From an uncultured Macellibacteroides sp. (GTDB lineage Bacteria; Bacteroidota; Bacteroidia; Bacteroidales; Tannerellaceae), in NCBI RefSeq assembly GCF_963667135.1, contig NZ_OY762974.1:4043054-4107053 (forward strand): a stretch of 64,000 nucleotides of DNA. Reading direction: 5' to 3'. The notes beneath the pieces are model-generated. The model did no database searches, was not told the origin of the DNA, and was given only the letters and a program-made list of their open reading frames with translations. Below, one piece after another: positions 7,612 through 63,967 of the stretch (the first letter of the stretch is position 1; each line of letters starts with the position of its first letter). Made by a program: the position numbers and the translations under genes.

Positions 7612-7624
7612 AAAAGATACTACA

Positions 7625-8563
7625 ATGAAACGAGCTATTCTATTCATAGTGGTCTGCACGCTTGCAGCCTGTAATTCTTCCACAAAACAGGAATCCGAAG
7701 CCGGACAGGCAAAAGCTGCTCCCGACAGTGTGATGACTCAGTCTGCGGATTCGGCAATGACAGCACAGTCTGCCTCTTCGGAGGATTCGGATGCGGTAGA
7801 CGGAAATTCGGGTGCTACCTTGGCAAATAAGGTTTCGTTCAACGGAATACTGGTTATTCCGCCTCAGAACTTTGCTTCGGTTACCCTGCACATGGGAGGA
7901 ATTATCCGTTATACCAGTCTGCTTCCCGGAGTTTACGTAAAGAAAGGCTCACTGCTGGCTACGCTGGATAATCCGGATTTCATTACCCTGCAGCAGACCT
8001 ACCTTGAGAGTCATGCCCAGACAGAATACCTGGAATCCGAATACAAACGCCAGCAACTTCTTGCCAAAGAAGAGGTGGCTTCCGAGAAAAAACTACAACA
8101 GTGTAAAGCGGAATATCTTTCCATGAAGAGCCGTTTGGAAGCCGCTGCTGCACAATTATCGTTGCTTGGAGTCTCTTCTCAATCGTTGCTTAAGGATGGA
8201 ATTAAACCTACCCTGGAAATAAAATCGCCGGTTAATGGGTACGTGGGCAATGTGAAGGTGAATATTGGCAAACACCTGGATGCAGGAGAAACTTTGTGCG
8301 ATGTGATTAATAAACAGGAAACCTTGCTTAGACTTACCACCTACGAAAAAGATTTAAAAGACATCCGGCTGGGAGCTAAAGTGTGGTTCAGGGTAAATGG
8401 TATGGGCGACAAGACGTTTGATGCCACGTTAATTTCTATTGGTCAGGAGGTTGACGAATCGAGCCGTTCGCTGGAGGTGTATGCCAGAGTTAATTCCGGC
8501 GATCTGTCATTCAGACCGGGAATGTATGTTACAGCTCAGATAGAACGGGTATCGCAGTACTAA
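7625..8563 (+). CDS. Efflux RND periplasmic adaptor (CusB/CzcB-like) lipoprotein
   Basis: Start chosen at 7625 because it gives a clean lipoprotein signal, MKRAILFIVVCTLAAC, with lipobox Cys16, and leaves 13 bp after the pump gene. Upstream in-frame codons lie inside that gene. The mature 296-residue protein begins with a Ser/Ala/Asp-rich linker, then a lipoyl half-motif, a coiled-coil hairpin (about residues 120-180), the second lipoyl half (IKSPVNGYVG) and a beta-barrel part. It joins the fused pump and outer membrane factor, completing a tripartite system from two genes. No His/Met-rich metal-binding N-terminal segment is visible, so metal specificity is not set here. Confidence 0.87.
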   Translation: MKRAILFIVVCTLAACNSSTKQESEAGQAKAAPDSVMTQSADSAMTAQSASSEDSDAVDGNSGATLANKVSFNGILVIPPQNFASVTLHMGGIIRYTSLLPGVYVKKGSLLATLDNPDFITLQQTYLESHAQTEYLESEYKRQQLLAKEEVASEKKLQQCKAEYLSMKSRLEAAAAQLSLLGVSSQSLLKDGIKPTLEIKSPVNGYVGNVKVNIGKHLDAGETLCDVINKQETLLRLTTYEKDLKDIRLGAKVWFRVNGMGDKTFDATLISIGQEVDESSRSLEVYARVNSGDLSFRPGMYVTAQIERVSQY

Positions 8564-8645
8564 CCTACGCGCACTAACCAATGCGATATATGTTAACGCT
8601 GTTACACTATCTTAACAATGCTTGGACATATTAAACTAATTTTTA

Positions 8646-8653
8646 TATCTTTG
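8646..8653 (+). promoter_or_regulatory. Putative -7 element (TATCTTTG) for DUF5020-permease genes
   Basis: Exact TAnnTTTG match 47 bases before the ATG at 8701. A TTGG at 8622-8625, 20 bases upstream, may be the -33 element. Confidence 0.55.
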
Positions 8654-8700
8654 ACCCCTTATTTTTAGTATTAAATTATAAATTAATAGAATTAGATTCG

Positions 8701-9399
8701 ATGAAAAAATTCTTTACCATTGCAGCGATCTTATTAATTGCCTTTAGTGGAAAGGCACAGAATGTTCAATTTCACCATGATTTTGGTAGCGCCTTGAACG
8801 ATGATCTGGATGGCAGACCTGCTACAACGACAACTGTTGAGATGTTTAAACCAGACAAATGGGGTAGTACGTTTTTCTTTGTAGATATGGATTACAACAG
8901 CAAAGGTGTGCAAGGTGCTTACTGGGAAATTGCCCGCGAACTGAAGTTCTGGGAAGGTCCGCTGTCTGCTCACGTTGAATACAATGGTGGTAGAGGTCAA
9001 TATCCTTACAACAATGCTTACTTGGCTGGTATCACGTTTACACATAACAGTGCCGACTTCTCAAAGGGGTTCAGCATACAGGCTATGTATAAGTATATCC
9101 AGAAATCTTATAAACCAAACAACTTCCAGCTTACAGGTACCTGGTACCTGAACTTTGCCAAGGGTGCAGGTACATTCAGTGGATTTGCCGACTTGTGGAG
9201 AGAAAACACAGATATGATTTTCCTTGCTGAACCTCAGATCTGGTTAAACTTTAACAAACTAAAGGGTGTGGATCCTGCTTTCAACCTGAGCTTTGGTTCG
9301 GAAGTAGAAATAAGCAACAACTTTGTTTGGAATAAATTCGGAGAACACAACAAGTTCTATGTTAATCCTACATTGGCTCTTAAATGGTCATTTAATTAA
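8701..9399 (+). CDS. DUF5020 / Tsx-like outer membrane channel
   Basis: Protein of 232 residues with a signal peptide ending GKAQ, then alternating beta-strand segments rich in aromatic residues and ending in an aromatic-terminated strand (LALKWSFN), as expected of a small outer membrane barrel. It resembles the DUF5020 family, which is related to nucleoside-specific Tsx channels. The purine permease gene starts 2 bp after its stop. A linked route for nucleobases or nucleosides across outer and inner membranes is therefore a reasonable inference. Specificity is not shown by the sequence alone. Confidence 0.75.
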   Translation: MKKFFTIAAILLIAFSGKAQNVQFHHDFGSALNDDLDGRPATTTTVEMFKPDKWGSTFFFVDMDYNSKGVQGAYWEIARELKFWEGPLSAHVEYNGGRGQYPYNNAYLAGITFTHNSADFSKGFSIQAMYKYIQKSYKPNNFQLTGTWYLNFAKGAGTFSGFADLWRENTDMIFLAEPQIWLNFNKLKGVDPAFNLSFGSEVEISNNFVWNKFGEHNKFYVNPTLALKWSFN

Positions 9400-9401
9400 T
9401 T

Positions 9402-10709
9402 ATGGAAGCCACTCTATTTAAAAAAATGGTTGGGTTTAATCCCAAGACCATGAAGGTACGTACCGAGATTCTAGCCGGTGTTACCACGTTCCTTACAATG
9501 AGTTATATCCTGGCCGTAAACCCGGATATTCTTAGTGCCGCTGGTATGGATAAGGGGTCTGTCTTTACTGCCACAGCCTTCTCGTCTGCAATTGCAACCC
9601 TGATGATTGCCTTTTTGGCAAAACTTCCTTTTGCTCAGGCTCCTGGTATGGGACTGAATGCATTCTTTGCCTTCACCTTGGTGCTGGGTATGGGATACAG
9701 TTGGGAAACAGCTTTGGCTGCCGTATTTGCCGAAGGTATTATCTTTATCATCATCACGCTTTTAAATATACGGGAAAAGGTTGTAAACTGTATTCCATTG
9801 AATCTCCGCTATGCCATGTCGGTGGGTATCGGTATGTTTATAGCCTTTATCGGGTTAAAGAATTCGGGTGTTATTGAAGCCAATCCGGCTACGTTTGTAG
9901 CTTTAGGTAAATTTACGCCTGTATCTTTGCTTGCCATTATGGGTATTGTTATCAGTGGTGTGCTTATGGCCAAAGGCGTTAAAGGCGCTTTATTCTACAG
10001 TATCCTTCTTTGTACCGCTATTGGTATTCCAATGGGTGTTACGGCTTTGCCCGAAAATTTCACCATCATGTCGTTGCCTCCTTCCATGGCTCCTACATTC
10101 CTGAAGTTCGATTTTGCATCGTTGCTTAATATCGATATGTTCTTTATTGTGTTATTGCTTGTGTTTATGGATTTGTTTAACACGATTGGGACATTGGTTG
10201 GTGCTGCTGCAAAAACAGAAATGATGGACGAGAAGGGAAATATCCCTCACATGAAGGAAGCTTTATTGGCTGATGCCATTGGTACAAGTGTGGGTGCTGT
10301 TTGTGGAACTTCTACTGTTACAACATATGTTGAAAGTGCTGCGGGAATCGCAGAAGGTGGTCGTTCGGGACTAACTGCATTTGTTGTTGGTATCCTGTTC
10401 TTTGTGGCTTTGCTTTTTGCTCCTGTATTCCTTTTGGTTCCGAGTGCTGCTACAACGGGTGCTTTGGTAATTGTTGGGGTATTCATGATGGAGTCTGTAC
10501 GCAAGATCGATTTCTCGGATATGACTGAGGCTTTGCCTGCTTTTGTAACCATTATCGTTATGGTTTTGGCTTATTCGATAGCCGAGGGTATGGCGATGGG
10601 TATGATGAGCTACGCGATCCTAAAATTACTTACCGGAAAGTATAAAGAAGTATCTATTACATTATATGTTCTCACAGTACTCTTAATACTGCGTTACATG
10701 TATTATTAA
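9402..10709 (+). CDS. NCS2 (AzgA-type) guanine/hypoxanthine permease
   Basis: Polytopic membrane protein of 435 residues with about 12-14 helices. It has the family signatures KLPFAQAPGMGLNAFFAF near residue 75, FMDLFNTIGTLVGAA near 255 and GTSTVTTYVESAAGIAEGGR near 300, all of AzgA/PbuG-type proton-coupled purine transporters. The length is normal for the family. It starts 2 bp after the DUF5020 barrel gene, so the pair is almost surely cotranscribed and would import purine bases, probably for salvage. Guanine, hypoxanthine and adenine cannot be told apart from the sequence. Confidence 0.9.
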   Translation: MEATLFKKMVGFNPKTMKVRTEILAGVTTFLTMSYILAVNPDILSAAGMDKGSVFTATAFSSAIATLMIAFLAKLPFAQAPGMGLNAFFAFTLVLGMGYSWETALAAVFAEGIIFIIITLLNIREKVVNCIPLNLRYAMSVGIGMFIAFIGLKNSGVIEANPATFVALGKFTPVSLLAIMGIVISGVLMAKGVKGALFYSILLCTAIGIPMGVTALPENFTIMSLPPSMAPTFLKFDFASLLNIDMFFIVLLLVFMDLFNTIGTLVGAAAKTEMMDEKGNIPHMKEALLADAIGTSVGAVCGTSTVTTYVESAAGIAEGGRSGLTAFVVGILFFVALLFAPVFLLVPSAATTGALVIVGVFMMESVRKIDFSDMTEALPAFVTIIVMVLAYSIAEGMAMGMMSYAILKLLTGKYKEVSITLYVLTVLLILRYMYY

Positions 10710-17135: not shown

Positions 17136-17786
17136 ATGTCAAAGCCATTTATCCTTGCAGATAATCAAGACATCACCAAAGCCGGCATCCTCTTCTTACT
17201 GAACAGGATGCCCGGTTTTACCGAGCCCTTCGAGGCCGACAATAAGAAAGATCTGATACAGCAGCTTACTGCCCATCCTAATGCGGTAGTGATACTGGAT
17301 TATACGCTGTTTGACATTGTAAGTGCCGACGAGCTTATTATTCTGAGCGAGCGTTTCAACGCGGCAGAATGGATTTTGTTTTCGGACGAGCTTAGTGAGG
17401 AATTTATGCGCAGAATTGTATTCAGCTCCGACAAATTCAGCGTGGTGATGAAAGAATGTACCAAGGAAGAGATAGAGGCGGCCCTGCAGTATACAATCCG
17501 TTCCGAACGTTTTATCTGTAACCGGATAACCAACCTTCTTCTTAGCAAAAAAACAACGGCGGAGAAACAAGAGAAAGTATTAACCGGTACCGAACAGGAG
17601 ATACTAAAACTAATTGCTTTGGGTAAAACAACCAAGGAAATAGCTTCCGAACGTATCTCGAGCATGCATACCATCATTACGCACCGCAAGAATATCTTCC
17701 GTAAACTGGCCGTAAACAACGTTCACGAAGCCACTAAGTATGCCCTGCGTGCCGGTATTATCGATTCGGCAGAATATTATATTTAA
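17136..17786 (+). CDS. NarL/LuxR-type response regulator
   Basis: Protein of 216 residues. Residues 1-120 form a degenerate receiver domain: D9 is kept, D55 in VVILDYTLFD is the likely phosphate acceptor, and K107 may replace the conserved Lys. The C-terminal domain (about 145-205) is a LuxR helix-turn-helix with LTGTEQEILKLIALGKTTKEIA and the recognition helix near SMHTIITHRKNIFRKL. No kinase gene is adjacent; the gene follows the PLP enzyme by 12 bp. It might be a partner of an orphan kinase elsewhere, or work without phosphorylation. Confidence 0.85.
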   Translation: MSKPFILADNQDITKAGILFLLNRMPGFTEPFEADNKKDLIQQLTAHPNAVVILDYTLFDIVSADELIILSERFNAAEWILFSDELSEEFMRRIVFSSDKFSVVMKECTKEEIEAALQYTIRSERFICNRITNLLLSKKTTAEKQEKVLTGTEQEILKLIALGKTTKEIASERISSMHTIITHRKNIFRKLAVNNVHEATKYALRAGIIDSAEYYI

Positions 17787-18158
17787 GTAATTTCCCCTGC
17801 TATATATAGCCACAAAATAAAGCAATCTTAAGGTTAGAACCCCTTAAGATTAAGAGCGAAAGATATAGTATTCGCTCCGTACGCCCATGGGCGTATTTTT
17901 TTGCCCCCATGGTTGTATTTTTTTACGCCCATGGGCGCGCGGCGCAAACATACCTGTAATGAACTTTAGTGCTGCCTACTTTCACCCTTAAAGATACCGG
18001 ATAGTACCCTTATCATTAATTATAATGATTAGCAAACTGGCAATTATTAATCAAAAATAAAAAGTAATAAGTCAAAAAGAACAAGCATTCACCAATCATA
18101 ATAACTTATTTTGCACATGTAGATCTGAATAAATGGGAGAATCTATTAAAACATTACT
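17787..18158. other. Gene-free region of 372 bp with hairpins and a CCCATGGG element
   Basis: It holds in order: a 10-bp stem (AATCTTAAGG at 17824-17833 with CCTTAAGATT at 17842-17851) that may terminate the LuxR gene, a 7-bp stem (17854-17860 with 17871-17877), the palindromic element, and about 190 bp of AT-rich DNA before the glycosidase-like gene. The TTATTTTG near 18108 is one mismatch from a -7 box. Confidence 0.7.
17854..17970 (+). repeat. CCCATGGG palindromic element, copy A
   Basis: Palindrome TACGCCCATGGGCGTA (17880-17895), T-run, central CCCCCATGG (17904-17912), T-run, then TACGCCCATGGGCG (17924-17937), which is the inverse of 17882-17895. It is followed by GCGCGGCGCAAA and a tail ending GAACTTTAGT. 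A second copy with the same order of parts lies at 43383-43490 in the same orientation. I see no ORF in it. It may be a REP-like repeat, a structured RNA or a protein-binding site. Confidence 0.75.
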
Positions 18159-19913
18159 ATGCAGAAAACTTATTCTATTTCATTTTTGCTTGTTAGTTTA
18201 TTGATGTGGTCGGATGCAGTACTCGCGCAAACGCAGTCGTTAGGGGGAACCGATGGATTGGGGAGGGTGCTTCCTCAGTACAAGGAAGCAGGTGCCCCCA
18301 TCGGTAATGCCCAGGTAGCCATGTTCTACTTCTTATGGCAGGGAGATGCCTCATCCAAAACTTCGGAAAGACAGTGGGATTTATATGATATATATACAAA
18401 ATATCCGGAAGTATTTGAAGATGCTGATCATCCGAACTGGGGAAGTGGCACGGGTAATTATTATTTCTGGGGAAAACCGATTTACGGTTACTACCGGGGG
18501 GATGATTATTGGGTGCATGTAAGAAATATACAACTTCTTACTGATGCGGGAGTAGACCTTCTGGTAATTGACGCGACAAATGGAATTGCCTATACCCAGC
18601 AGGCAAATGTTCTGATGCAGGCGATCAATTCGGTACGTTTACAAGGAAAGAACCCTCCTAAAATAGTCTTTTACACCAACACCGCTTCCGGTAAAACCAT
18701 ACAAGAAATTTATGATTCTTTCTATAAGGAAGGAGCTCCTTATTTTTATCCGGATTGCTGGTATTACCTGGATCAGAAACCTTTAATTATTGGAGTATCT
18801 GCCGAAACGAAAGATAAAAACTACAAAGATTTCTTTACAATAAAGGAATCGCAGTGGCCTACTGTCGAGCAGGTAGCAGACGGTTGGCCGTGGATTGAAT
18901 TTGTTCGTCCGCAGAAAGTGTATTATAACAATCGGGGAGAAAAAGAAATCATAAATGTCTCCGTTGCCCAGCATCCCAATCCCGGTGCAGGAATGGGAGG
19001 TTCTGCCTTCTATAAAAACAAGGATAATTGGGGACGAAGTTTCCATAATGGTCGTCCGGCGGAGAATCCGAAAATCGATATTCTGTATGGATATAACTTT
19101 CAGGAACAATGGGATGTGGCCATTAAGGAACGTCCCCCGTTTGTTTTCGTTACCGGATGGAACGAATGGATTGCGGGTAAATGGCCCAGTCACGACGATA
19201 ATCCGGAACATTCGTGGTTTTGCGATCAGGCAAGCCCCGAATACAGCCGCGACATAGAGCCTACGTTTACAGCAGGCCTCGACGATCATTATTATATGCA
19301 GCTCGTTAGCAACATCCGGCGCTATAAGGGGGTCTCCCCTCTCCCGGTATTAAGTGCGAAGAAAACAATCAGAACGTTTGATGATTGGGACGAGGTACAA
19401 CCTGAGTATTCGGATTATACCGGAGATGTAAAGCATAGAAATCATCCAAGTGCTCAATCAGGGCCTTTGGTTACTAACGTAAACAATACCGGACGAAACG
19501 ATTTCAAGTGGATGAAAGTAGCCAGAGATGATAAAAACATCTGGTTTTTAGCTCAGACTGCCAACGAAATTACATCGCCTTCCGGCAAACAATGGATGAC
19601 TCTCTTCATTGACACGGATCGTTCCCGCAAGACAGGCTGGAATGGATATGATTTCCGGATCCTGGCCGGGTTGTCCCTCGAGCACTACCATAATGGAAAA
19701 TGGGAATATATGGGGGATGTGAACTATCAACTGGAAGGGAATAAAATGATGATTTCTATTCCCTTCAAAATACTTGGCATTCTACCGGATAAGATTAACA
19801 TTGAATTTAAATGGTCCGACAACTGGCAGAAGGAAGATCCTTTAGATTGGTATATAAATGGTGATGCCGCTCCCGGAGCCCGCTTCAACTTTGTTGCCGT
19901 ATCACAGTTTTAG
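18159..19913 (+). CDS. Secreted GH99/GH71-like protein with C-terminal beta-sandwich (CBM9-like) domain
   Basis: Protein of 584 residues with a signal peptide ending VLAQ. Residues about 45-390 look like a GH71/GH99-type (beta/alpha)8 domain: AMFYFLWQGD, GVDLLVIDATNG, a tyrosine- and tryptophan-rich interior, and FVFVTGWNEWIAGKW near residue 330, with an acidic residue placed as a likely catalytic or structural one. Residues about 420-584 form a separate beta-rich domain (KWMKVARDDKNIWFLAQTA, LFIDTDRSRKTGW) similar to CBM9-like domains. Endo-acting glycosidase activity is a family inference; the substrate is unknown. Its stop interleaves with that of the convergent M28 gene. Confidence 0.65.
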   Translation: MQKTYSISFLLVSLLMWSDAVLAQTQSLGGTDGLGRVLPQYKEAGAPIGNAQVAMFYFLWQGDASSKTSERQWDLYDIYTKYPEVFEDADHPNWGSGTGNYYFWGKPIYGYYRGDDYWVHVRNIQLLTDAGVDLLVIDATNGIAYTQQANVLMQAINSVRLQGKNPPKIVFYTNTASGKTIQEIYDSFYKEGAPYFYPDCWYYLDQKPLIIGVSAETKDKNYKDFFTIKESQWPTVEQVADGWPWIEFVRPQKVYYNNRGEKEIINVSVAQHPNPGAGMGGSAFYKNKDNWGRSFHNGRPAENPKIDILYGYNFQEQWDVAIKERPPFVFVTGWNEWIAGKWPSHDDNPEHSWFCDQASPEYSRDIEPTFTAGLDDHYYMQLVSNIRRYKGVSPLPVLSAKKTIRTFDDWDEVQPEYSDYTGDVKHRNHPSAQSGPLVTNVNNTGRNDFKWMKVARDDKNIWFLAQTANEITSPSGKQWMTLFIDTDRSRKTGWNGYDFRILAGLSLEHYHNGKWEYMGDVNYQLEGNKMMISIPFKILGILPDKINIEFKWSDNWQKEDPLDWYINGDAAPGARFNFVAVSQF

Positions 19914-53981: not shown

Positions 53982-54407
53982 TTACAACTTATACAAATCA
54001 CTTGCGGCTAAAAGCTCCAATTTGTTTGCTTTTAGCACTTCAGCACACTTTTCCACATTGTCGGGTCTGATTATTACATTTGCTGCTTCTCCCTGAGAGA
54101 AGGCATACATGTATTCAATAAAAATCCCTTCCGCTGTGATAATATCCATCGCCTTCGCTAATGCACCGGGTTGATTCGGGCAATGCAGGCACACCACATT
54201 GGCAACACTTACAGCATATAGCTTATCGCGAAGCACTTTAATCGCTTTATCAGTATCCGAAACTATTAAACGCAAAATACCAAAATCAGAGTTTTCGGCA
54301 ACTGTAAAAGCAGACATATTTATACCGGCTTCTCCAAGCAACTTGGCTACTTCAGTAAAACGCCCTTTTTTATTTTCCAGAAAGATAGACAACTGTTTAA
54401 TTAACAT
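53982..54407 (-). CDS. Tandem ACT-domain protein
   Basis: Protein of 141 residues made of two ACT domains: about 1-68 (IKQLSIFLENKKGRFTEVAKLLGEAGINM) and 70-140 (VVCLHCPNQPGALAKAMDIITAEGI). Such proteins bind amino acids and act as regulators. It lies 17 bp after the phenylacetate-CoA ligase gene on the same strand; this pair often accompanies indolepyruvate oxidoreductase genes in anaerobes, which are not in this window. A regulator of aromatic amino-acid catabolism is a fair inference. Confidence 0.9.
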   Translation of the reverse strand: MLIKQLSIFLENKKGRFTEVAKLLGEAGINMSAFTVAENSDFGILRLIVSDTDKAIKVLRDKLYAVSVANVVCLHCPNQPGALAKAMDIITAEGIFIEYMYAFSQGEAANVIIRPDNVEKCAEVLKANKLELLAASDLYKL

Positions 54408-54424
54408 AGTTCTTTATCATTAGG

Positions 54425-55726
54425 TTATAGTAACTTTCTGTTATCAATAACGTGTTTTGCTTTACCCTGACTACGTTCGATACTACGCGGTTCAACAATT
54501 TTAACATCGGGAGCAATCCCAAGTACACTTTGTAAACGGTGTGTTATCTTTTTCTTTAAAGCAATCAGTTTATTCATTTCGTCCGTATAAAACTCTTGTC
54601 TTACTTCCACTTGTACCTGCAAGGTGTCGGTATTGTTTACCCGGTCAACAATCAGCAGATAATGTGGTTCAAACTCTTCGAGCTCCAGAATTACAGATTC
54701 AATCTGCGATGGGAATACGTTTACACCTCTGATAATCAACATATCGTCGCTTCTTCCCAAGATCCGGCTCATACGAACTGCGGTACGACCGCAATCACAT
54801 ACTTCATAATTCAAAGAAGTAAGGTCTCTTGTCCGATAACGCAACATAGGCATTCCTTCTTTTGTAAGCGTTGTAAATACCAATTCACCCGGTTGCCCTG
54901 GTTCTACAGGTTCAAGCGTATTCGGATCTATAATTTCTGGAAAGAAATGATCTTCCCACAAATGAGTCCCATTCTGGCACTCGCATTCACAACCAACACC
55001 CGGACCGATTATCTCCGTAAGACCATAAATATCGTAAGCTTTGATGCCTAACTTTTCTTCAATATCCTTACGCATATTCTCTGTCCAGGGTTCAGCTCCA
55101 AAGATACCAGTTTTTAATTGAAATTCCTCTCTTTTAATACCGGAATCTTTAATGGCTTCTGCTAAAAACAATGCATACGAAGGTGTACAGGCCAAAGCCT
55201 TTGCCCCAAAGTCGTGCATAAGCTGTATTTGTTTCTGTGTATTACCGCTACTTATAGGAATAACCGTTCCACCAATTGTTTCAACACCATAATGCAAACC
55301 AAGGCCTCCGGTAAATAATCCATACCCATAAGACACTTGAACAGAGTCGTTACGAGACAAACCGTAAGCAGTTAAACAGCGTGCTACCACTTCGCTCCAG
55401 GTAGAAAGATCCTTTCTTGTATAACCAACCACAATAGGCTGACCTGTTGTTCCTGATGAAGCATGAAGACGAACGATTTCGGACATAGGCACAGCCATTA
55501 ATCCAAATGGATAATTGTCGCGTAAATCCTGTTTTACGGTAAAAGGAAGTTTTTTAATATCTTCAATAGAGTTGATATCACCGGGAGTTAATCCGATCTC
55601 CTGCATTTTTTTCCGATAGAAGGGAGTATTGTGGTACGCATGTTCTACTACTCGTTTTAAGCGGATGCTCTGTAGTTTTCTCATTTCCTCGCGACTCATG
55701 CATTCTATTGTCTCGTTCCAAATCAT
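54425..55726 (-). CDS. paaK: Phenylacetate-CoA ligase
   Basis: Start set at 55726 (MIWNETIECMSREEM), the typical N-terminus; a frame extension to 55777 adds only a hydrophobic stretch. 433 residues, normal for PaaK. The adenylation motif is LHASSGTTGQPIVVGYT, followed by YGLFTGGLGLHYG, GAEPWTE and IYGLTEIIGPGVG. The C-terminal domain has the hinge with RSDDMLIIRGVNVFPSQIE. It makes aryl-acetyl-CoA from arylacetates with ATP. In anaerobes it can run in the reverse sense for ATP gain, or activate aryl acids from aromatic amino-acid fermentation. Confidence 0.93.
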   Translation of the reverse strand: MIWNETIECMSREEMRKLQSIRLKRVVEHAYHNTPFYRKKMQEIGLTPGDINSIEDIKKLPFTVKQDLRDNYPFGLMAVPMSEIVRLHASSGTTGQPIVVGYTRKDLSTWSEVVARCLTAYGLSRNDSVQVSYGYGLFTGGLGLHYGVETIGGTVIPISSGNTQKQIQLMHDFGAKALACTPSYALFLAEAIKDSGIKREEFQLKTGIFGAEPWTENMRKDIEEKLGIKAYDIYGLTEIIGPGVGCECECQNGTHLWEDHFFPEIIDPNTLEPVEPGQPGELVFTTLTKEGMPMLRYRTRDLTSLNYEVCDCGRTAVRMSRILGRSDDMLIIRGVNVFPSQIESVILELEEFEPHYLLIVDRVNNTDTLQVQVEVRQEFYTDEMNKLIALKKKITHRLQSVLGIAPDVKIVEPRSIERSQGKAKHVIDNRKLL

Positions 55727-55836
55727 GATAATATAGTATTTTATAATTAGAAGCAAATTAGTGACGCAAAGTAACAACTTTTTTTATTTTTATCCCATTC
55801 TGTTACTAATTAATTCCCATTCACGACAACAATTCG

Positions 55837-57491: not shown

Positions 57492-58505
57492 TTAAATTAT
57501 TGAATTTTTTTTCGTGAATTCGATTATCTCGTCGATATATCCAAAAGCCAATCCTGTAACAGTGTCGGCACATCCATAATAGACGGCTATGCGTTTCGTT
57601 TCGGGATCATGCAACGCTGCGCAAGGAAAAACAACGTTTGGAACATCCCCCATGCATTCGTAGTCTTTTTGCGGAGACAACAGATAAGGTCCCGAACGGA
57701 ATTTAACCTTCCAAGGCTGATCAATATCCAATAACGCGGATCCAAAGCTATAAACAAAGCCATTGCAAGAATGCAATACCCCGTGATATATTAGCAACCA
57801 GCCTTCTGAAGTTTCGATAGGAATAGGTCCCGCACCGATTTTTGTACACTGCCAGGCGCTATCTTCAAAGGGAGCAGGCGACATTACATGACGATGCTTT
57901 CCCCAAAAACACATATCCGGAGACTCACTATAGAATATATCACCAAAAGGTGTATGACCATTATCACTTGGCCGACTAAGCATGGCATAGTTTCCATTAA
58001 TCTTACGTGGAAACATTACCCCGTTACGATTAAACGGCAAATAAGCATTTTCGAGTTGATGGAACGTTTCGAAATCAAACGTGTATGCAACACCAATTGT
58101 AGGACCATGGTATCCATTACACCAGGTTACATAGTATCTGTCTTCGATAAAGCAAACACGAGGGTCGTAAGCATAAACAAACTCGCCAATCTCTTTATCG
58201 TCACAAACAAACTCTAATTTGGTTTTCTTTATATCCCAGTGAATGGCATCTTTGCTAAAACCAACATGTAAACGCATTCGCCGGTTTGTATCGTCGCAGC
58301 GAAACACGCCTGCATATCCATCTTTGAATGGTACAACCGCACTATTAAACACGCTGTTTGAAGTGGGAATGATATTTCTTGGAATCACCGGATTCTTTGA
58401 AAAACGCCACATAACATCGCTACATCCTTCCGGGCGATCTTCCCAAGGCATATCGGGCAGCGCGTCTCCTGTTATTTTTAAATCAAACTTATTCATGCTA
58501 CTCAT
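57492..58505 (-). CDS. GH130-family glycoside phosphorylase or hydrolase
   Basis: Protein of 337 residues, a five-bladed propeller of the GH130 size. Motifs: [41 protein letters not shown] with the catalytic Asp in YDPRV, and [20 protein letters not shown]. Known members phosphorolyse beta-mannosides (mannosyl-glucose, mannosyl-GlcNAc); some are hydrolases. No signal peptide, so cytoplasmic. ATG at 58496 is a possible alternative start. It follows the symporter gene by 22 bp and is last in the operon, so the symporter may import its substrate. Confidence 0.9.
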
Positions 58506-58527
58506 ATAGTTTTTGTTTAAACAATCA

Positions 58528-60411
58528 TCAATCCTTTTTATCTAAATCCAATTCTTTCATCAAAGCATCGTATTCTTTTTCGTCTTTATCCATTTTATCA
58601 TACCAGTTTTTCTTAAGTATCAATGTAGTAATAATAAGAATAAGAACAGATGTTAACAACGGAAATCCTTCTTTAATAACAATATACATGGGTATAATGG
58701 TTAAGCAACTTTGCCATAAAATACCAATAGCCACGTTAAACATATCGCGCTTAAAGTTTTTATTTGTCTTAACCTGAGGGTATTTGGCTATTGCTTTTTT
58801 TGCAACAGGACCCCAGAGCCCCCAGGGACGTACTCGGATATAAAAATTAATCAGTGTTTTTTCGTCTGTGGGTTCAGAAAGCAATGTTCCTACAATACAG
58901 CCGATAAACGACACAGACATAAGTACCGGGAAATAATACAAAGGCAATGTATCCGGGAAAAAATACGGAACAATCATTGCTGCCAGAATACCAACCAGCA
59001 TTCCCCAGAAATAACCTGTTCCATTAAACCGCCACCAATGCCATTTTAATAAGTTGGCAGCAATATAGCCTCCGTACAAAGCAGAGACAATCCATTGCAG
59101 TACTGAATTAATATTCAAAACAAAGAAACCGATAACAGTACTAACAACTACAACCAAAACGGAAATAATATAACTTGCCCGTATCTGAATCTTAGCAGAA
59201 GCTTTCGGATTGATATACTTCAGGTAAACATCATTTACCAGATAAGCAGGTGCAGCATTTACAGTAGAAGCAAAGGTAGACATAAATGCAGCAAGCAAAC
59301 CAGCAAGCAAAAGTCCGGCAAGTCCGGTTGGAACAAATTGACCTATCGCTCGCGGAAGAATAGTCTCAAAGTCTACCGACGATCCCATTGCCCGAAAATC
59401 TTCACTAAAGAAAACAATTGCCAATACAGCAAAACCCATAATCATCAGATATCTTGGAATAAGCAATATTACAGGAACAGAACCGCTCATCAAAGCTGCT
59501 TCTTTCGGAGTTTTACATGCCAGAATCTTTTGCATATCATAATTGGGTGCTGGGCCTGCCATACTTAAAAATACTCCTTTAAAAAGCATCATCATTATAA
59601 ATATGGTAAATAAACCGTACTGATCTGCCGCTATTTTATCCATAACATTAGGAAGAAGATTGCTCCAATCCAGATCCAGCGTCCAACCAAAAAATGGAGT
59701 ATTCCAACCTGCAGGCACATGTGCGGCAAGCATTTCGGGAGTTACATTAATCATTGCAATAACAGCTATCACCACCCCGGCAATTGTCATTATAGCAAAT
59801 TGCACCACATCCGTCCACACGATACTTAGCATTCCTCCAAGCATCACATAGATAGTAGCTATCGAAGTAAAGAAGATACCATAAACATGAGGCACATACT
59901 CGGGCGTTACATCGAATGGCACGTATTGCGAAACCACTTCCCAGGGGAAGAAGATTTCCATAAATTTACCAATACCTATAAAGCCATAGCTTAGAAAACC
60001 TAAAACACCAATTACTGCGTAAAGGACTACGATAGTATGAGAAAGATTGGCTCCTCTGCCATATCCAAAACGAGTACGAATCCATTCGGCTCCAGTCAGC
60101 ACATTTGAACGACGAAGCCAGACAGAAAGGTATACCATCAGGAAAATTTGATTAAACACCGGCCAAAGCCACGGAATCCATAGACTCTTAAGTCCATAAA
60201 CAAATGCCAGGTACACCATCCACATCGTTCCGGAAATATCAAACATCCCCGAAGCATTAGAAAGCCCTAACATGTAAAAAGGCAAGGTTTTACCTCCAAG
60301 GAAGTAAGAATCGAGATTTTTGGACGCTTTCTTCTTAAGCATCAGTCCGATGACAAGCATAATCACCAGATAGGCAGCTATTATCAACACGTCCAGCAGT
60401 TGTAATTTCAT
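58528..60411 (-). CDS. Sodium:solute symporter (SSS family)
   Basis: Protein of 627 residues with 14-15 predicted membrane segments. The N-terminus ([20 protein letters not shown]) and [21 protein letters not shown] are typical of the SSS family; the segment [20 protein letters not shown] near residue 370 holds Na+-site serines and threonines of helix 8. The C-terminal part is cytoplasmic and charged ([20 protein letters not shown]). It would co-transport a sugar, sugar acid or related solute with sodium. Neighbours suggest a mannoside-like glycoside or a small ketose as ligand. It has its own -7 element. Confidence 0.92.
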
Positions 60412-60445
60412 GATAAGATCAATTTGTTTTCATAATAAACTCTGG

Positions 60446-60453
60446 CAAAGATA
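60446..60453 (-). promoter_or_regulatory. Putative -7 element (TATCTTTG) for the symporter-GH130 pair
   Basis: Minus-strand exact match to TAnnTTTG, 34 bases before the ATG at 60411; TTTG at 60476-60479 on the minus strand is 22 bases upstream. It would allow separate expression of the last two genes. Confidence 0.5.
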
Positions 60454-60462
60454 TAAAAACTA

Positions 60463-61347
60463 TTAATTTAAAGGACAAACAGCCGAAATCATTCCGGTCT
60501 CCTTATAGTCTGATAGCGACCATACCATTTTTCCCTTTTTATTCAACTCTATTAACTTAGGATATCCCCCGGGCGCATCGCCACCATGCCCCTGCCAATT
60601 ACAGATATAAATTCCTCCGTCTTTTACAGGGAACATTTCGGCAACAAATGAAAGAGGAGCTCCTGTAATTTGTTTTTCTGTCACGGTACGAACTATTATT
60701 CCTTTGTCAAAATTCAGTTCTATATACTGGTGAGCGTCTCCGCAAGCTACCAATAAATTACCATTTGGAAGAGGAACGGCACAGAATGGATTTCCAGGAA
60801 CCTTTACACTTTTAATAAGATCACCATTTGGACTTACTTCCCGGATATCGGATGTTTGAAAAACCGGGATAAGATAATTCCCTCTTTTATTTTTATTAAC
60901 CTGGCGAAACTGAGCATGTGTATGTTCTACTCCCGTTTCGTATTCAGTCTTTTTTATAACCTGCCCTTTGCCATTAACTTCAAGAATAGCAGCCGGGTGT
61001 CCGCACCAGGCAAGCAAGCAGTTTCCGTTTGCAAGAACTCTGGCAGTCTGCATTTCACAATTTTCAGGCACATTTATATTCCATACTTCCTTATGGTCTC
61101 TCGTAATCAGCTTTGCTCCTTTTCCATATGAAAACAGAATGTTTCCATCACGAGTTACTGACACTGAATTGCATTCCCATCCCTTTTCGAGAGAATGTTC
61201 CCACTCAACTTTTTTTGATTCTTTATCGATAATGGCAATTTTATTCCATCCTGAACCACCAATCAATAACTTGGCATCTTTCCGCTTAAATGAAAAGAAA
61301 AGAATTGACAAAGCAGCCACACTAACAAGGATATATATTCTATTCAT
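60463..61347 (-). CDS. Exported or membrane-anchored beta-propeller (PQQ-like) protein
   Basis: Protein of 294 residues with an N-terminal hydrophobic segment (IYILVSVAALSILFFSF) without a clear cleavage site, followed by repeated WD/PQQ-like strands: KLLIGGSGWNKIAIIDKESK, VSVTRDGNILFSYGKG, LANGNCLLAWCGHPAAILEV, PLPNGNLLVACGDAHQYIEL. A six- or seven-bladed propeller fold is likely. No enzyme motif was recognised; similar proteins accompany sugar-catabolic genes in this phylum as secreted sugar-binding or enzyme-like proteins. It lies between the LsrF gene terminator and the symporter gene. Confidence 0.75.
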   Translation of the reverse strand: MNRIYILVSVAALSILFFSFKRKDAKLLIGGSGWNKIAIIDKESKKVEWEHSLEKGWECNSVSVTRDGNILFSYGKGAKLITRDHKEVWNINVPENCEMQTARVLANGNCLLAWCGHPAAILEVNGKGQVIKKTEYETGVEHTHAQFRQVNKNKRGNYLIPVFQTSDIREVSPNGDLIKSVKVPGNPFCAVPLPNGNLLVACGDAHQYIELNFDKGIIVRTVTEKQITGAPLSFVAEMFPVKDGGIYICNWQGHGGDAPGGYPKLIELNKKGKMVWSLSDYKETGMISAVCPLN

Positions 61348-61384
61348 CTTTATATATGCAGTTTAACTGATTAAGAATAAAAAC

Positions 61385-61420
61385 AAAAAGGGCTGCCTTA
61401 ACAGGAAGCAGCCCCTTTTT
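61385..61420 (-). terminator. Intrinsic terminator after the LsrF gene
   Basis: A hairpin with core GGGCTGC (61390-61396) and GCAGCCC (61408-61414), extended by A/T pairs and with one small bulge, lies 6 bases after the LsrF gene stop. It ends in a T-rich stretch on the minus strand. It probably lowers transcription from the kinase-LsrF genes into the downstream genes. Confidence 0.8.
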
Positions 61421-61426
61421 AATAAA

Positions 61427-62305
61427 TCATTTTGAAAGATTATTAAATAGCTCAAAAGCCTGATCGGGGGTCAGTCCCTCATGCACAACGCCACGAACAG
61501 CACGAATCATGGCTATGGGCGATTCACTTTGGAAAACATTACGTCCCATATCTACTCCTGCGGCACCTTCATTTATTGCTCTGTAGCAAAGATCCAATGC
61601 ATCTTTCTCGGGTAATTTTTTACCTCCAGCAATAACAATGGGAACCGGACATGCGTTAATTACCTTTCCAAAATCTTGCTCGGTATAGTATGTTTTTACA
61701 AAAGTTGCTCCGTTTTCTGCACAAATACGTGTTGCGGCAGAAAAATAACGGGCATCGCGTGTCATTTGCTTTCCTACGGCAGTTACTCCCATGGTTGGAA
61801 TGCCGTATGTATAGCCAAAATCGGCTGTGCGAACTAAATTTTCAATAGTTTTACCTTCGTAAGTATCACCAATCGAAACCATAACTGCCAAAGCTGATGC
61901 ATTTAAACGGATAGCATCCTTGATATCCAAAATACATTCATTGTTCAATTCTGTTAGGACAGTAGTTCCGGCCGAATAGCGCAAGCAAATCGGTTTGTTG
62001 GAAACAGGAGGAACCACCGAACGCAATGCGCCCCTCGTACACATCAGGGAGTCGGCGTATTCGATAAGCGGTACAATTGACAAATCAAGTCTTTCCAATC
62101 CCGAGGTAGGTCCCATTATGTATCCGTGATCGAAAGCCAGCATAACCGTACGTCCTGTAGCCGGATTAAAAATCCGGCTCATTCTGTCCTTAATTCCCCA
62201 GTCACAATGATCCAGTCCCTTTAGAAAGTAAGATTGTTTCTGTACAGGGACACCTATTCCGTAATCTTTGTCTTTGTTGGCGATAATGCCATCTAAATCT
62301 GCCAT
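61427..62305 (-). CDS. LsrF-like class I aldolase/thiolase (phospho-AI-2 processing family)
   Basis: Protein of 292 residues that matches E. coli LsrF closely over its whole length as I recall it: DWGIKDRMSRIFNPATGRTV, MLAFDHGYIMGPTSGLER, MCTRGALRSVVPP, and GGKKLPEKDALDLCYRAIN. The Schiff-base lysine is K204 in FVKTYYTEQDFG. LsrF transfers the acetyl group of phospho-HPD to CoA, giving acetyl-CoA and dihydroxyacetone phosphate in AI-2 catabolism. None of the other lsr genes are in the window; the upstream partners are a DhaK/DhaL kinase pair. A different small-ketose phosphate as substrate is possible. Confidence 0.9.
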   Translation of the reverse strand: MADLDGIIANKDKDYGIGVPVQKQSYFLKGLDHCDWGIKDRMSRIFNPATGRTVMLAFDHGYIMGPTSGLERLDLSIVPLIEYADSLMCTRGALRSVVPPVSNKPICLRYSAGTTVLTELNNECILDIKDAIRLNASALAVMVSIGDTYEGKTIENLVRTADFGYTYGIPTMGVTAVGKQMTRDARYFSAATRICAENGATFVKTYYTEQDFGKVINACPVPIVIAGGKKLPEKDALDLCYRAINEGAAGVDMGRNVFQSESPIAMIRAVRGVVHEGLTPDQAFELFNNLSK

Positions 62306-62332
62306 TTTCTTATAATTAAAATGTAAAAGTTA

Positions 62333-62947
62333 TTATACAGCCTCTGCAAATGCAGCAAACATACATGACCACGAAGTTGCTCCCGAATCTGCATAACCAA
62401 TTGACTGCTCTCCGTAGTTACGGGCTCTTCCAAAATTAGCTTTCATCCTGACTGTATCTTCGGCTCCCTTTAAGGCTGCATCCGCAGCAGACAACAGCAA
62501 TTCTTTTACATCTGCGGTGTCTGAATTCTGCATCGCCTCAACAGCCGGAATTAAAGCATCCATCATTGTTTTATCACCCTTCTGAGCCTTTGTCTGCTTC
62601 TGAACGTTTTCGAGTCCTCCGGCAAACATGGCTTTTACTCCATTTACATCAAGTAAAGAGCCGCTTGCATGATCGCTCATTCCAAGAAAGAAAGCGCCTA
62701 GCAACGTACTTGTAGAACCGCTGGTTTGCAGCATTACAGCAAATCCCATATCATTAAGTACCGATTTGAACTCGGTTCCTTTTTCGAGAGGAGTCATTAC
62801 GCAAGAAAGAGCCGTAACAATAGCAGTTCCGTGATCACCGTCACCAATAACCGCATCGAGTTTCGAAAATTCGTCTTCCCTAAGCTTTACATGAACCAGC
62901 GCGTTACTCATCATCGCTTTAAAAGCGTCTATCGTTAATAATTCCAT
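62333..62947 (-). CDS. DhaL-like ADP/ATP-binding subunit of a dihydroxyacetone-type kinase
   Basis: Protein of 204 residues, the DAK2/DhaL fold. The metal-nucleotide loop DAVIGDGDHGTAI has D31, D36 and D38. Further motifs are QTSGSTSTLLGAFFLGM near residue 74, KGDKTMMDALIPAVEAM near 122 and GRARNYGEQSIGYADSGATS near the end. This subunit carries the nucleotide and passes phosphate to the ketose held by DhaK. It is separate from DhaK, as in PTS-dependent systems, but no DhaM-like gene is nearby. It starts 3 bp after the dhaK stop and is followed 27 bp later by the LsrF gene. Confidence 0.9.
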   Translation of the reverse strand: MELLTIDAFKAMMSNALVHVKLREDEFSKLDAVIGDGDHGTAIVTALSCVMTPLEKGTEFKSVLNDMGFAVMLQTSGSTSTLLGAFFLGMSDHASGSLLDVNGVKAMFAGGLENVQKQTKAQKGDKTMMDALIPAVEAMQNSDTADVKELLLSAADAALKGAEDTVRMKANFGRARNYGEQSIGYADSGATSWSCMFAAFAEAV

Positions 62948-62950
62948 GTT

Positions 62951-63967
62951 TTATTTACCTATTGTAACCCAGTAAGGTGCATCTGCACGTTTGTTTTTCA
63001 AATAATCAATGTGATCAGCGTCAAGTCTGGCAATTATCATCTGGAAACCAGCTTGCTCCTGAACGGTAAGGATTTCTTGGATACGGCCTTCCACCACATC
63101 AAATCCCTTTTCCTCCAAAACAAGACATGATTTACGATAAATAATATTCAGTTCCATATGAGTTGTTGCCCCTACTCCATTAATGATAAGCATTAATTTA
63201 TCTCCTGCGGCAGGTTTAAGTTGTTGCAACAACAGGTCTACCATTTGAGAAGCAGTTTCATCGGCCGATACTAATGGCTGGCGTCCACCACCACCTTCTC
63301 CGTGCTGTCCCATACCTATCTCCATAATACCTTCGGGAAGGTCGGTTATGATACCGTTGTTCTGAGGATGTGTGCAAGAACGCATAGCAACAGCAAGAGT
63401 TGCTACATTATCACAGAAACGTTCGCCGATTTCCAATAATTCATCCAATGATTTACCTTCTTCAGCAGCAGCTCCGATAATTTTAAACAAAGGAACGCAA
63501 CCAGCCAATCCGCGACGGTCGTCTTTCGGAGCACCAATCCCGGCGCTTATGTCGTCGTGAGTAAGTAAACGCTTCACCTTGATGCCCACACGTTCGGCAA
63601 GTTGGCAAGCCATGTTGGCACTCATTACATCACCCGAGTGATTTAGAACAACCAACAATATTCCGGCTTCTCTTTTAAACATTTGCAGTGCCTGGAAAAG
63701 ACGCTGTGCTCCTGGTGCGGCAAATATATCGCCTACCACAGAGCAATCAAGCATTCCTTCGCCAACAAAGCCACTTAATGCAGGCTCGTGACCCGATCCG
63801 CCCAAGGTTACAATAGCCACTTTATCTTCGCTTTTTGGATGAACACGAACAACAATGTTCTCGCCACCTAAAGTCACTTTATCTTTATATGCCATTACAT
63901 AGCCTTCCAATAGTTCCTGGGTAATATTTTCCGGATTGTTTATGAATTTTATCTTATTTGCTGACAT
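62951..63967 (-). CDS. DhaK-like substrate-binding subunit of a dihydroxyacetone-type kinase
   Basis: Protein of 338 residues, the DAK1/DhaK fold. The covalent substrate His is H222 in IGMGQHGEGG, matching His in the GIHGEPG motif of E. coli DhaK; the second active-site His is H60 in LGGSGHEPALSG. VVLNHSGDVMSANMACQLAE is also conserved. It holds a short ketose such as dihydroxyacetone, erythrulose, apulose or a related C3-C5 ketose for phosphorylation by DhaL. It is the first gene of the operon; the promoter lies beyond or at the window end. Confidence 0.92.
   Translation of the reverse strand: MSANKIKFINNPENITQELLEGYVMAYKDKVTLGGENIVVRVHPKSEDKVAIVTLGGSGHEPALSGFVGEGMLDCSVVGDIFAAPGAQRLFQALQMFKREAGILLVVLNHSGDVMSANMACQLAERVGIKVKRLLTHDDISAGIGAPKDDRRGLAGCVPLFKIIGAAAEEGKSLDELLEIGERFCDNVATLAVAMRSCTHPQNNGIITDLPEGIMEIGMGQHGEGGGGRQPLVSADETASQMVDLLLQQLKPAAGDKLMLIINGVGATTHMELNIIYRKSCLVLEEKGFDVVEGRIQEILTVQEQAGFQMIIARLDADHIDYLKNKRADAPYWVTIGK

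Follow-up and report, generated by a model that had tools for sequence, protein, structure and literature searches.

A conserved operon of a DAK-type kinase, an LsrF homologue and hydrazine-synthase-like haem proteins, probably for sugar breakdown, in an uncultured Macellibacteroides

Which substrate does an LsrF homologue serve when its gene stands behind those of a two-subunit kinase, with nothing else of the Lsr pathway at hand? The question is raised by a stretch of 64,000 nt (the window) within the 4.46 Mb single-contig genome of an uncultured Macellibacteroides sp. (contig NZ_OY762974.1), in which genes for DhaK and DhaL, subunits of a dihydroxyacetone (DHA) kinase-type enzyme, precede one for a homologue of LsrF, the terminal enzyme of the Escherichia coli Lsr pathway for autoinducer-2 (AI-2). 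A preliminary description of the locus saw in it an alternative route for AI-2 or for a ketose. What stands of that proposal is a conserved unit free of Lsr genes; AI-2 itself is disfavoured because AI-2 alone leaves unexplained two kinds of partner encoded in the same operon, haem proteins resembling hydrazine synthase and an isomerase-like cupin with the look of an exported protein. The operon is probably an undescribed route of sugar breakdown in gut and environmental bacteria. The open-access PMC literature, searched with combinations of LsrF, DHA kinase, hydrazine synthase-like and D-lyxose isomerase, gave no description of it; within that literature it is the combination that is new, the enzyme families being already known.

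Gene content and conservation

Reading frames for DhaK, DhaL, LsrF, a beta-propeller, a sodium:solute symporter and a GH130 enzyme are all present on the minus strand at their coordinates (Table 1), and reading frames, Pfam matches and alignments bear out the order and catalytic residues first given for them. The operon does not start at DhaK. Seven further genes, read from locus L002 (window position = L002 position + 56946), follow beyond the window edge, likewise on the minus strand; intergenic distances are −29 to 58 bp from the IclR gene to that of LsrF and −29 to 79 bp over the whole one-strand run. They encode a metalloenzyme of the vicinal oxygen chelate (VOC) fold, CcsBA, a protein similar to the alpha subunit of hydrazine synthase (HzsA-like), the cupin, an FkbO-like protein, a cytochrome similar to the beta and gamma subunits (HzsBC-like) and the regulator; a RidA-superfamily member is encoded in the operon. 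The genome has one LsrF, one Dak1 and one HZS_alpha only, and a second copy as the explanation of this LsrF is thereby rejected.

Conservation was followed in two sets of loci. LsrF is found at the survey threshold of 1e-60 in 52 of the 98 family genomes, from which 41 neighbourhoods were taken, the own genome included and 11 others left out; the named loci are the best 80 of at least 590 confirmed ones from a targeted scan of named-species genomes. The resulting 121 stretches represent 116 different loci, 5 being common to both sets. DhaK, DhaL and LsrF genes are contiguous in this order in 34 of the 41 family loci and 53 of the 80 named ones, so that, as had been proposed, the DAK-type kinase and the LsrF homologue make up one conserved unit without Lsr genes. 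In the family loci the VOC gene is present in 35, the cupin, HzsA-like, HzsBC-like and CcsBA genes in 32 each, that for IclR in 30 and the FkbO-like one in 29. Twenty-five loci have the propeller gene as well, 12 that of GH130 and 8 that of the symporter. The last two are optional members, and the idea that the six genes from DhaK to GH130 form a unit is not supported in view of these counts, of a terminator-like hairpin directly past lsrF and of conserved partners on the other side. The feeding of mannosides into the pathway by GH130, which had also been suggested, loses its footing with them: a mannoside-fed pathway is rejected as the operon core, GH130 and symporter being optional and an MFS gene taking the symporter's place in L050.

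Seven family loci lack the contiguous trio. Six belong to one related genus with an isolated LsrF, considered below; the seventh, L061 (8619-15962), is reduced to FkbO-like, CcsBA, VOC and LsrF genes followed by an MFS-like gene (judged by eye) and GH130, and no match to DhaK, DhaL, the cupin or HzsA was found in it. Of the 98 genomes of the family, 45 have both LsrF and a strong cupin match (of at least 1e-100 strength), 7 have LsrF alone, 1 has the cupin alone and 45 have neither (Fisher 3e-19, kinship ignored); the lone cupin gene carries two internal stops. With the cupin taken at 1e-15, which adds distant cupins in five genomes, the corresponding figures are 47, 5, 4 and 42 (Fisher 2e-17, kinship again ignored).

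Wide spread of the operon is rejected by random sampling: among 295 genomes of the class 2 have LsrF at 1e-60, among 395 of the phylum 2 have the cupin at 1e-40, and every one of these is from the own family. The operon is therefore rare outside that family; the named relatives were obtained by the targeted scan. The named loci come from Bacteroidota, Verrucomicrobiota, Planctomycetota, Kiritimatiellota and Lentisphaerota. In the 38 from Bacteroidota DhaK is present in 34, DhaL in 37, VOC in 34, the cupin in 31 and the HzsA-like protein in 34; in the 42 from other phyla DhaK is present in 25 and DhaL in 27. The locus also occurs outside the gut, for example in the groundwater record L148, and Parabacteroides distasonis strain NM39_I3 is among the records that have it. 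Thirteen Planctomycetaceae loci (L097, L100, L102, L103, L106, L110, L111, L117, L119, L124, L134, L136 and L140), some on short contigs, have LsrF without DhaK or DhaL in the stretch analysed.

The kinase, the LsrF homologue and their partners

Is the kinase an ordinary DHA kinase? DhaK scores 276 bits where the equivalog model TIGR02363 asks for 406, with the L050 and L089 proteins also below at 291 and 326, and DhaL scores 131 where TIGR02365 asks for 138. The catalytic residues are kept, H60, D113 and H222 of DhaK in 93/93 and D31, D36 and D38 of DhaL in 96/98, the other two not being aligned at those positions. It is the pocket that departs. A Leu stands in 93/93 where both aligned DHA kinases carry Lys, and the motifs FAAP and LNHxGD take the place of FTSP and KNYxGD, with A83, A84, L108, N109 and H110 in 93/93. 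That Lys and FTSP we take to be DHA-binding positions of DHA kinases. Since pocket residues are replaced in all 93, a substrate other than DHA can be argued for and, the scores being below both equivalog cut-offs, an ordinary DHA kinase appears unlikely here. To that extent the preliminary reading of the pair is supported.

The LsrF homologue, by contrast with the kinase, passes its curated model, NF006081 for 3-hydroxy-5-phosphonooxypentane-2,4-dione thiolase, with 445 bits against a cut-off of 297 (471 for L050, 443 for L094, 356 for L069 and 560 for E. coli LsrF itself). It is identical to the E. coli protein at 163 of 290 aligned residues (56%), and the solved structure was matched over nearly its full length. 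D59 and H60 are kept in 121/121 stretches and K204 in 120/121; the Lys equivalent to K204 is the catalytic residue of E. coli LsrF. Cleavage may proceed in a coenzyme A (CoA)-dependent thiolase mode or in an aldolase mode. In a tree of the 80 named sequences, 9 of the 41 from the family and that of E. coli (on a long branch, its placement unsure), the window LsrF clusters with other Bacteroidales copies, beside Rikenellaceae and apart from Parabacteroides copies. To judge from this placement, copies of LsrF have apparently been swapped while their position in the operon stayed the same.

In one related genus LsrF stands isolated, without operon partners (L062, L063, L065, L068, L069 and L073), and is taken as a separate paralogue. 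The copy in L069 has Glu at the catalytic Lys position, which is the sole K204 exception. At most loci of this genus a phosphatase, Cof-type by eye, is encoded nearby.

The 104-residue protein encoded next to DhaK gave no family match in a Pfam search with the window-strain sequence; a profile search matched it to glyoxalase I (1.1e-5). Its structure model (predicted local distance difference test, pLDDT, 96) led Foldseek to glyoxalase I and methylmalonyl-CoA epimerase, and judged from that model it is a VOC-fold metalloenzyme with four metal ligands. Sixteen divergent members retain H6, E39, H58 and E99; in the gathered loci E39, H58 and E99 are present in 82/82, and H6 in 80/82, the remaining two not being aligned there.

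For the cupin, too, a single-sequence Pfam search returned no cupin family, and it is profile matches to the D-lyxose isomerases 7nzo and 2y0o (3.3e-22 and 3.5e-19) that place it in the D-lyxose/D-mannose isomerase family, with predicted isomerase activity. The metal ligands H141, H143 and H209 occur in 77/78 and E153 in 76/78, the rest not being aligned at those positions. The AlphaFold model is poor (pLDDT 58.5), and its Foldseek matches do no more than agree with the sequence result. Most members, judged by eye, begin with a signal sequence, a lipobox or a Tat-type motif, which suggests export; the solved D-lyxose/D-mannose isomerase relatives are cytosolic. Elsewhere, a cupin gene with two internal stops (G321:C16:14609-15232), in a genome without LsrF at 1e-60, has the appearance of a decaying locus.

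The HzsA-like protein of 1325 residues carries a Pfam HZS_alpha domain (8.8e-38). Among near-full-length proteins (over 85% of query length in the family set, over 80% in the named set) every HzsA-like one has two CxxCH motifs (29/29 and 35/35), as has every HzsBC-like one (29/29 and 17/17). Judged by sequence comparison the two are homologous to hydrazine synthase alpha, beta and gamma, with four haem motifs between them and alpha recognized through Pfam and a weak NCBIfam match; the curated NCBIfam hydrazine synthase cut-offs are missed (alpha 42.9 versus 800, beta-gamma 92.8 versus 1250). PMC10732223 puts forward that hydrazine-synthase-like proteins make up a wide family whose members act on other substrates.

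Do these genes travel together? Among homologues covering at least 80% of the query, pairwise distances of DhaK, DhaL, VOC, cupin and HzsA-like proteins track each other with r of 0.86 to 0.94, the highest being that of DhaK with DhaL.

A proposed route and its rivals

We regard it as an evenly balanced proposition that the operon serves the catabolism of a sugar or sugar derivative, with haem proteins and cupin acting in the envelope and then VOC enzyme, DhaKL and LsrF. The route that we infer, in its order and direction as in its products, would begin in the envelope, where the HzsA-like/FGE and HzsBC-like c-type cytochrome pair, matured via CcsBA, would act with the D-lyxose/D-mannose-isomerase-like cupin to make a ketose or diketose from an aldose-type substrate. 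Once this had been taken up, the VOC metalloenzyme would shift a carbonyl or epimerize, doing LsrG chemistry with another fold, DhaK-DhaL would phosphorylate the hydroxyl adjacent to the ketone, and LsrF would split the C5 or C6 phosphate into dihydroxyacetone phosphate (DHAP) and either an acyl-CoA, as a thiolase, or an aldehyde, as an aldolase; IclR would control the operon. A narrower version, which is tentative and in our judgement rather doubtful, has a four-haem hydrazine-synthase-like envelope complex act on a sugar to give a diketo sugar, from which the VOC enzyme, a specialized DAK kinase and an LsrF thiolase would make DHAP and acyl-CoA. An acyl-CoA product would be suited by a gene of the phosphate acyltransferase family in L089 (Planctomycetota, Anaerohalosphaeraceae), PTA_PTB at 9.5e-30 and in the same run; there, proteins of the phosphate acyl/butyryltransferase family and of the acetohydroxyacid synthase (AHAS) ACT-domain type are encoded between IclR and VOC (6667-7938).

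Several findings weigh against this reading. Searched against the PDB, the HzsA-like protein matched chains of the FGE-domain type only and no hydrazine synthase alpha, and for the HzsBC-like protein a surface-layer propeller came first, with hydrazine synthase gamma and beta behind it. LsrF distances track those of its partners less closely than the partners track each other (r of 0.68 to 0.78 with DhaK, DhaL, VOC, cupin and HzsA-like, 0.78 being that with DhaK) and are weakest with HzsBC-like and CcsBA (0.56). In the 42 loci of other phyla VOC is present in 13, the cupin in 15, the HzsA-like protein in 10 and the HzsBC-like one in 1, and because the last two are so scarce outside Bacteroidota the haem part is dispensable in some loci; LsrF stands without a nearby DhaK or DhaL in 15 of the 42, several of them short contigs. 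The phosphate acyltransferase is clear in L089 only, with a weak 31% match in L142, and is below every listed NCBIfam cut-off. Finally, the operon core holds no transporter.

Somewhat improbable, though the strongest of the alternatives, is a ketose pathway of the aldolase type that needs no CoA, the haem proteins doing something separate. The cupin would make a ketose (D-xylulose from D-lyxose, 5-deoxyribulose from 5-deoxyribose), DhaKL would convert it to the 1-phosphate, and LsrF, as a class I aldolase, would release DHAP and a short aldehyde. The cupin family and DAK chemistry are consistent with this, and the LsrF substrate shares its carbon skeleton with 5-deoxyribulose 1-phosphate. However, a cupin that by eye looks exported is odd for a cytosolic kinase-aldolase route, the VOC enzyme and haem proteins are left unexplained, and no aldehyde dehydrogenase was seen, as far as looked at, among the protein clusters recurring in 4 or more of the 80 loci. 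Besides the eleven operon families there are eight such clusters, of which four look by eye like antisense frames, and the other four, with one member each annotated, are an ABC ATPase, a sensor kinase, a GFO/IDH oxidoreductase and one without Pfam match. These recurring clusters bear equally on a pathway of the usual kind for DHA, glycerol or erythrulose whose aldolase has merely been given the wrong name, and for which the Dak1 and Dak2 domains speak; with the kinase below the DHA-kinase equivalog cut-offs and its pocket replaced throughout, we consider that very unlikely. Recurrence around the operon of a gene set known for erythrulose, apiose or DHA, which the preliminary description would have counted against its proposal, was not seen, and no cluster like glycerol dehydrogenase or erythrulose-phosphate isomerase is among those recurring, only part of the neighbours being annotated. 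Least probable of all is a nitrogen-compound pathway in which the Hzs-like and RidA-fold proteins would deal with an amino sugar's amine, imine or nitrogen oxide, while its carbon would be recovered by DhaKL-LsrF. The HZS_alpha domain, the matches to hydrazine synthase beta and gamma chains and the RidA-superfamily member favour it; against these stand the wide margins by which the curated hydrazine synthase cut-offs are missed, and the recurring clusters, as far as annotated, include no family of nitrogen metabolism.

And AI-2? In such a scheme AI-2, as 4,5-dihydroxy-2,3-pentanedione (DPD), would be scavenged or quenched along a route of the Lsr kind in which some parts are exchanged: the VOC enzyme would perform the LsrG isomerization and DhaKL the LsrK phosphorylation, LsrF would yield acetyl-CoA and DHAP, and another transporter would stand in for the Lsr ABC transporter. 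The closeness of this LsrF to the E. coli enzyme, with its catalytic Lys and curated match, is in its favour, and the three cytosolic activities would match one for one, since, by the chemistry of their families, the LsrG proton shift would be within reach of a VOC enzyme and phosphorylation of an alpha-hydroxyketone within that of a DAK kinase. LuxS is absent from 98/98 family genomes, with 5 of 14 controls positive, and therefore any AI-2 would be foreign. A statistical link of a Bacteroidetes lsrF homologue to the gut, with the suggestion that it degrades AI-2, is put forward in the relevant part of PMC6084841. Nevertheless AI-2 uptake requires neither haem cytochromes nor an extracellular aldose isomerase, the module is also found in non-gut records such as the groundwater one, and the 121 stretches contain, apart from LsrF, nothing specific to the Lsr system: E. 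coli LsrK, LsrR, LsrB, LsrC, LsrD and LsrG have no match in any (0/121), and LsrA has generic ABC matches in 4. The gene-order search that had been advised, with a look for LsrK, LsrR and LsrB, thus found the order conserved and none of these in the stretches. Nor was a full lsr operon, which could have accounted for LsrF, found elsewhere in the genome, where the genome-wide searches were for LuxS (0 matches, 5 of 14 control genomes positive), LsrB (no match, in a search without a positive control) and LsrK (four distant matches only, at 24-27% identity). AI-2 is a possible substrate and not a favoured one, and we judge its scavenging unlikely, less so than the ordinary DHA or nitrogen pathways and more so than the aldolase route.

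Features, neighbours and known systems

Coordinates are collected in Table 1. Both terminator-like hairpins, that past lsrF and a second between the HzsA-like gene and CcsBA, are consensus matches only, and such matches are not enriched in the operon stretch (13 versus 16.7 in shuffles). Promoter-like sites are likewise without excess (48 versus 46.8), an Rfam search gave no match, and a tRNA search found none. Elsewhere in the window, a gene for a PaaK-type CoA ligase adjoins one for a paired-ACT-domain protein (53982-55777), just downstream of the region, and in an RND efflux pump (3307-7611) the AcrB-type part and the outer-membrane efflux (OEP) part are one reading frame of 1434 residues.

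Table 1. Features of the operon and its flank in the window and in locus L002
Feature	Window position	L002 position	Strand	Evidence or remark
GH130 glycoside phosphorylase-type enzyme	57492..58505		-	Pfam GH130 3.9e-72
Sodium:solute symporter	58528..60411		-	Pfam SSF 6.7e-26
Mala_s_1-like beta-propeller	60463..61347		-	Pfam 8.5e-68
Terminator-like hairpin directly past lsrF	61385..61419	4473-4439	-	14 pairs, T-rich tail; consensus match only
LsrF homologue, 292 aa, K204	61427..62305		-	DeoC/LacD aldolase 1.7e-16; NF006081
DhaL-like nucleotide-binding kinase subunit, 204 aa	62333..62947		-	Dak2 4.9e-37; D31/D36/D38
DhaK-like kinase subunit, 338 aa, own subfamily	62951..63967		-	Dak1 5.8e-95; motifs FAAP, LNHxGD, GMGQHGE
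VOC-fold metalloenzyme gene (by model), 104 aa	63991..64000 (last 10 bases)	7045-7359 (whole)	-	structure model, Foldseek
CcsBA		7392-9830	same	past window edge
NPCBM + HZS_alpha + FGE protein, 1325 aa		9889-13866	same	past window edge
D-lyxose-isomerase-family cupin, 241 aa		13898-14623	same	lipoprotein-type start; past window edge
FkbO/Hyg5 chorismatase-like protein, 365 aa		14657-15754	same	past window edge
Hydrazine synthase beta-gamma-like cytochrome, 603 aa		15764-17575	same	TTG start as listed, true start unsure
IclR regulator		17547-18356	same	past window edge

If the narrower, diketo-sugar version holds, the Lsr route of E. coli would be an outlying case in which this kind of cleavage is put to use. 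The operon would give a lsrF homologue of the kind linked to the gut in the pertinent section of PMC6084841 a different or more specific role, provided that the two homologues are the same, and the idea raised there, that such a homologue destroys AI-2 in the gut, becomes testable because the cytosolic steps may parallel those of LsrK-LsrG-LsrF, two of the enzymes having been exchanged for others. Hydrazine-synthase-like proteins would find themselves in a metabolic setting resembling sugar breakdown; PMC10732223 treats what they do outside anammox as open. The operon names genes for genetic testing, which is probably within reach given the Parabacteroides distasonis record.

How does the operon stand beside known systems? 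With the Lsr pathway of E. coli it shares the homologous terminal enzyme with its conserved catalytic Lys and, it may be supposed, a logic of kinase, isomerase and thiolase; it differs in having a DAK kinase for the FGGY kinase LsrK and a VOC enzyme for LsrG, in adding haem proteins and an exported-looking cupin, and in lacking LsrB, LsrC, LsrD and LsrR nearby. Like the DHA kinase DhaK-DhaL it has both subunits, the Dak1 and Dak2 domains and the substrate His with its partner His and Asp, yet its pair is under the equivalog cut-offs, has invariant pocket changes and lacks a DHA or glycerol context. The D- and L-erythrulose kinases DerK and LerK and the 5-deoxyribose/DHAP shunt also let a kinase act on short ketoses before cleavage or isomerization, whereas around the operon, among the neighbours annotated, an isomerase or class II aldolase of that sort was not seen as a cluster recurring in 4 or more of the 80 loci. 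The profile match and metal-ligand pattern of the cupin recall D-lyxose/D-mannose isomerase of the YdaE type, from which its mostly lipoprotein, Tat-type or other signal start sets it apart. As to the hydrazine synthase of anammox bacteria, the operon has in common with it an HZS_alpha domain, a beta-gamma-like fusion and two haem motifs per part; its proteins are, however, far under the cut-offs, carry FGE and NPCBM domains and lie in a neighbourhood of the sugar type.

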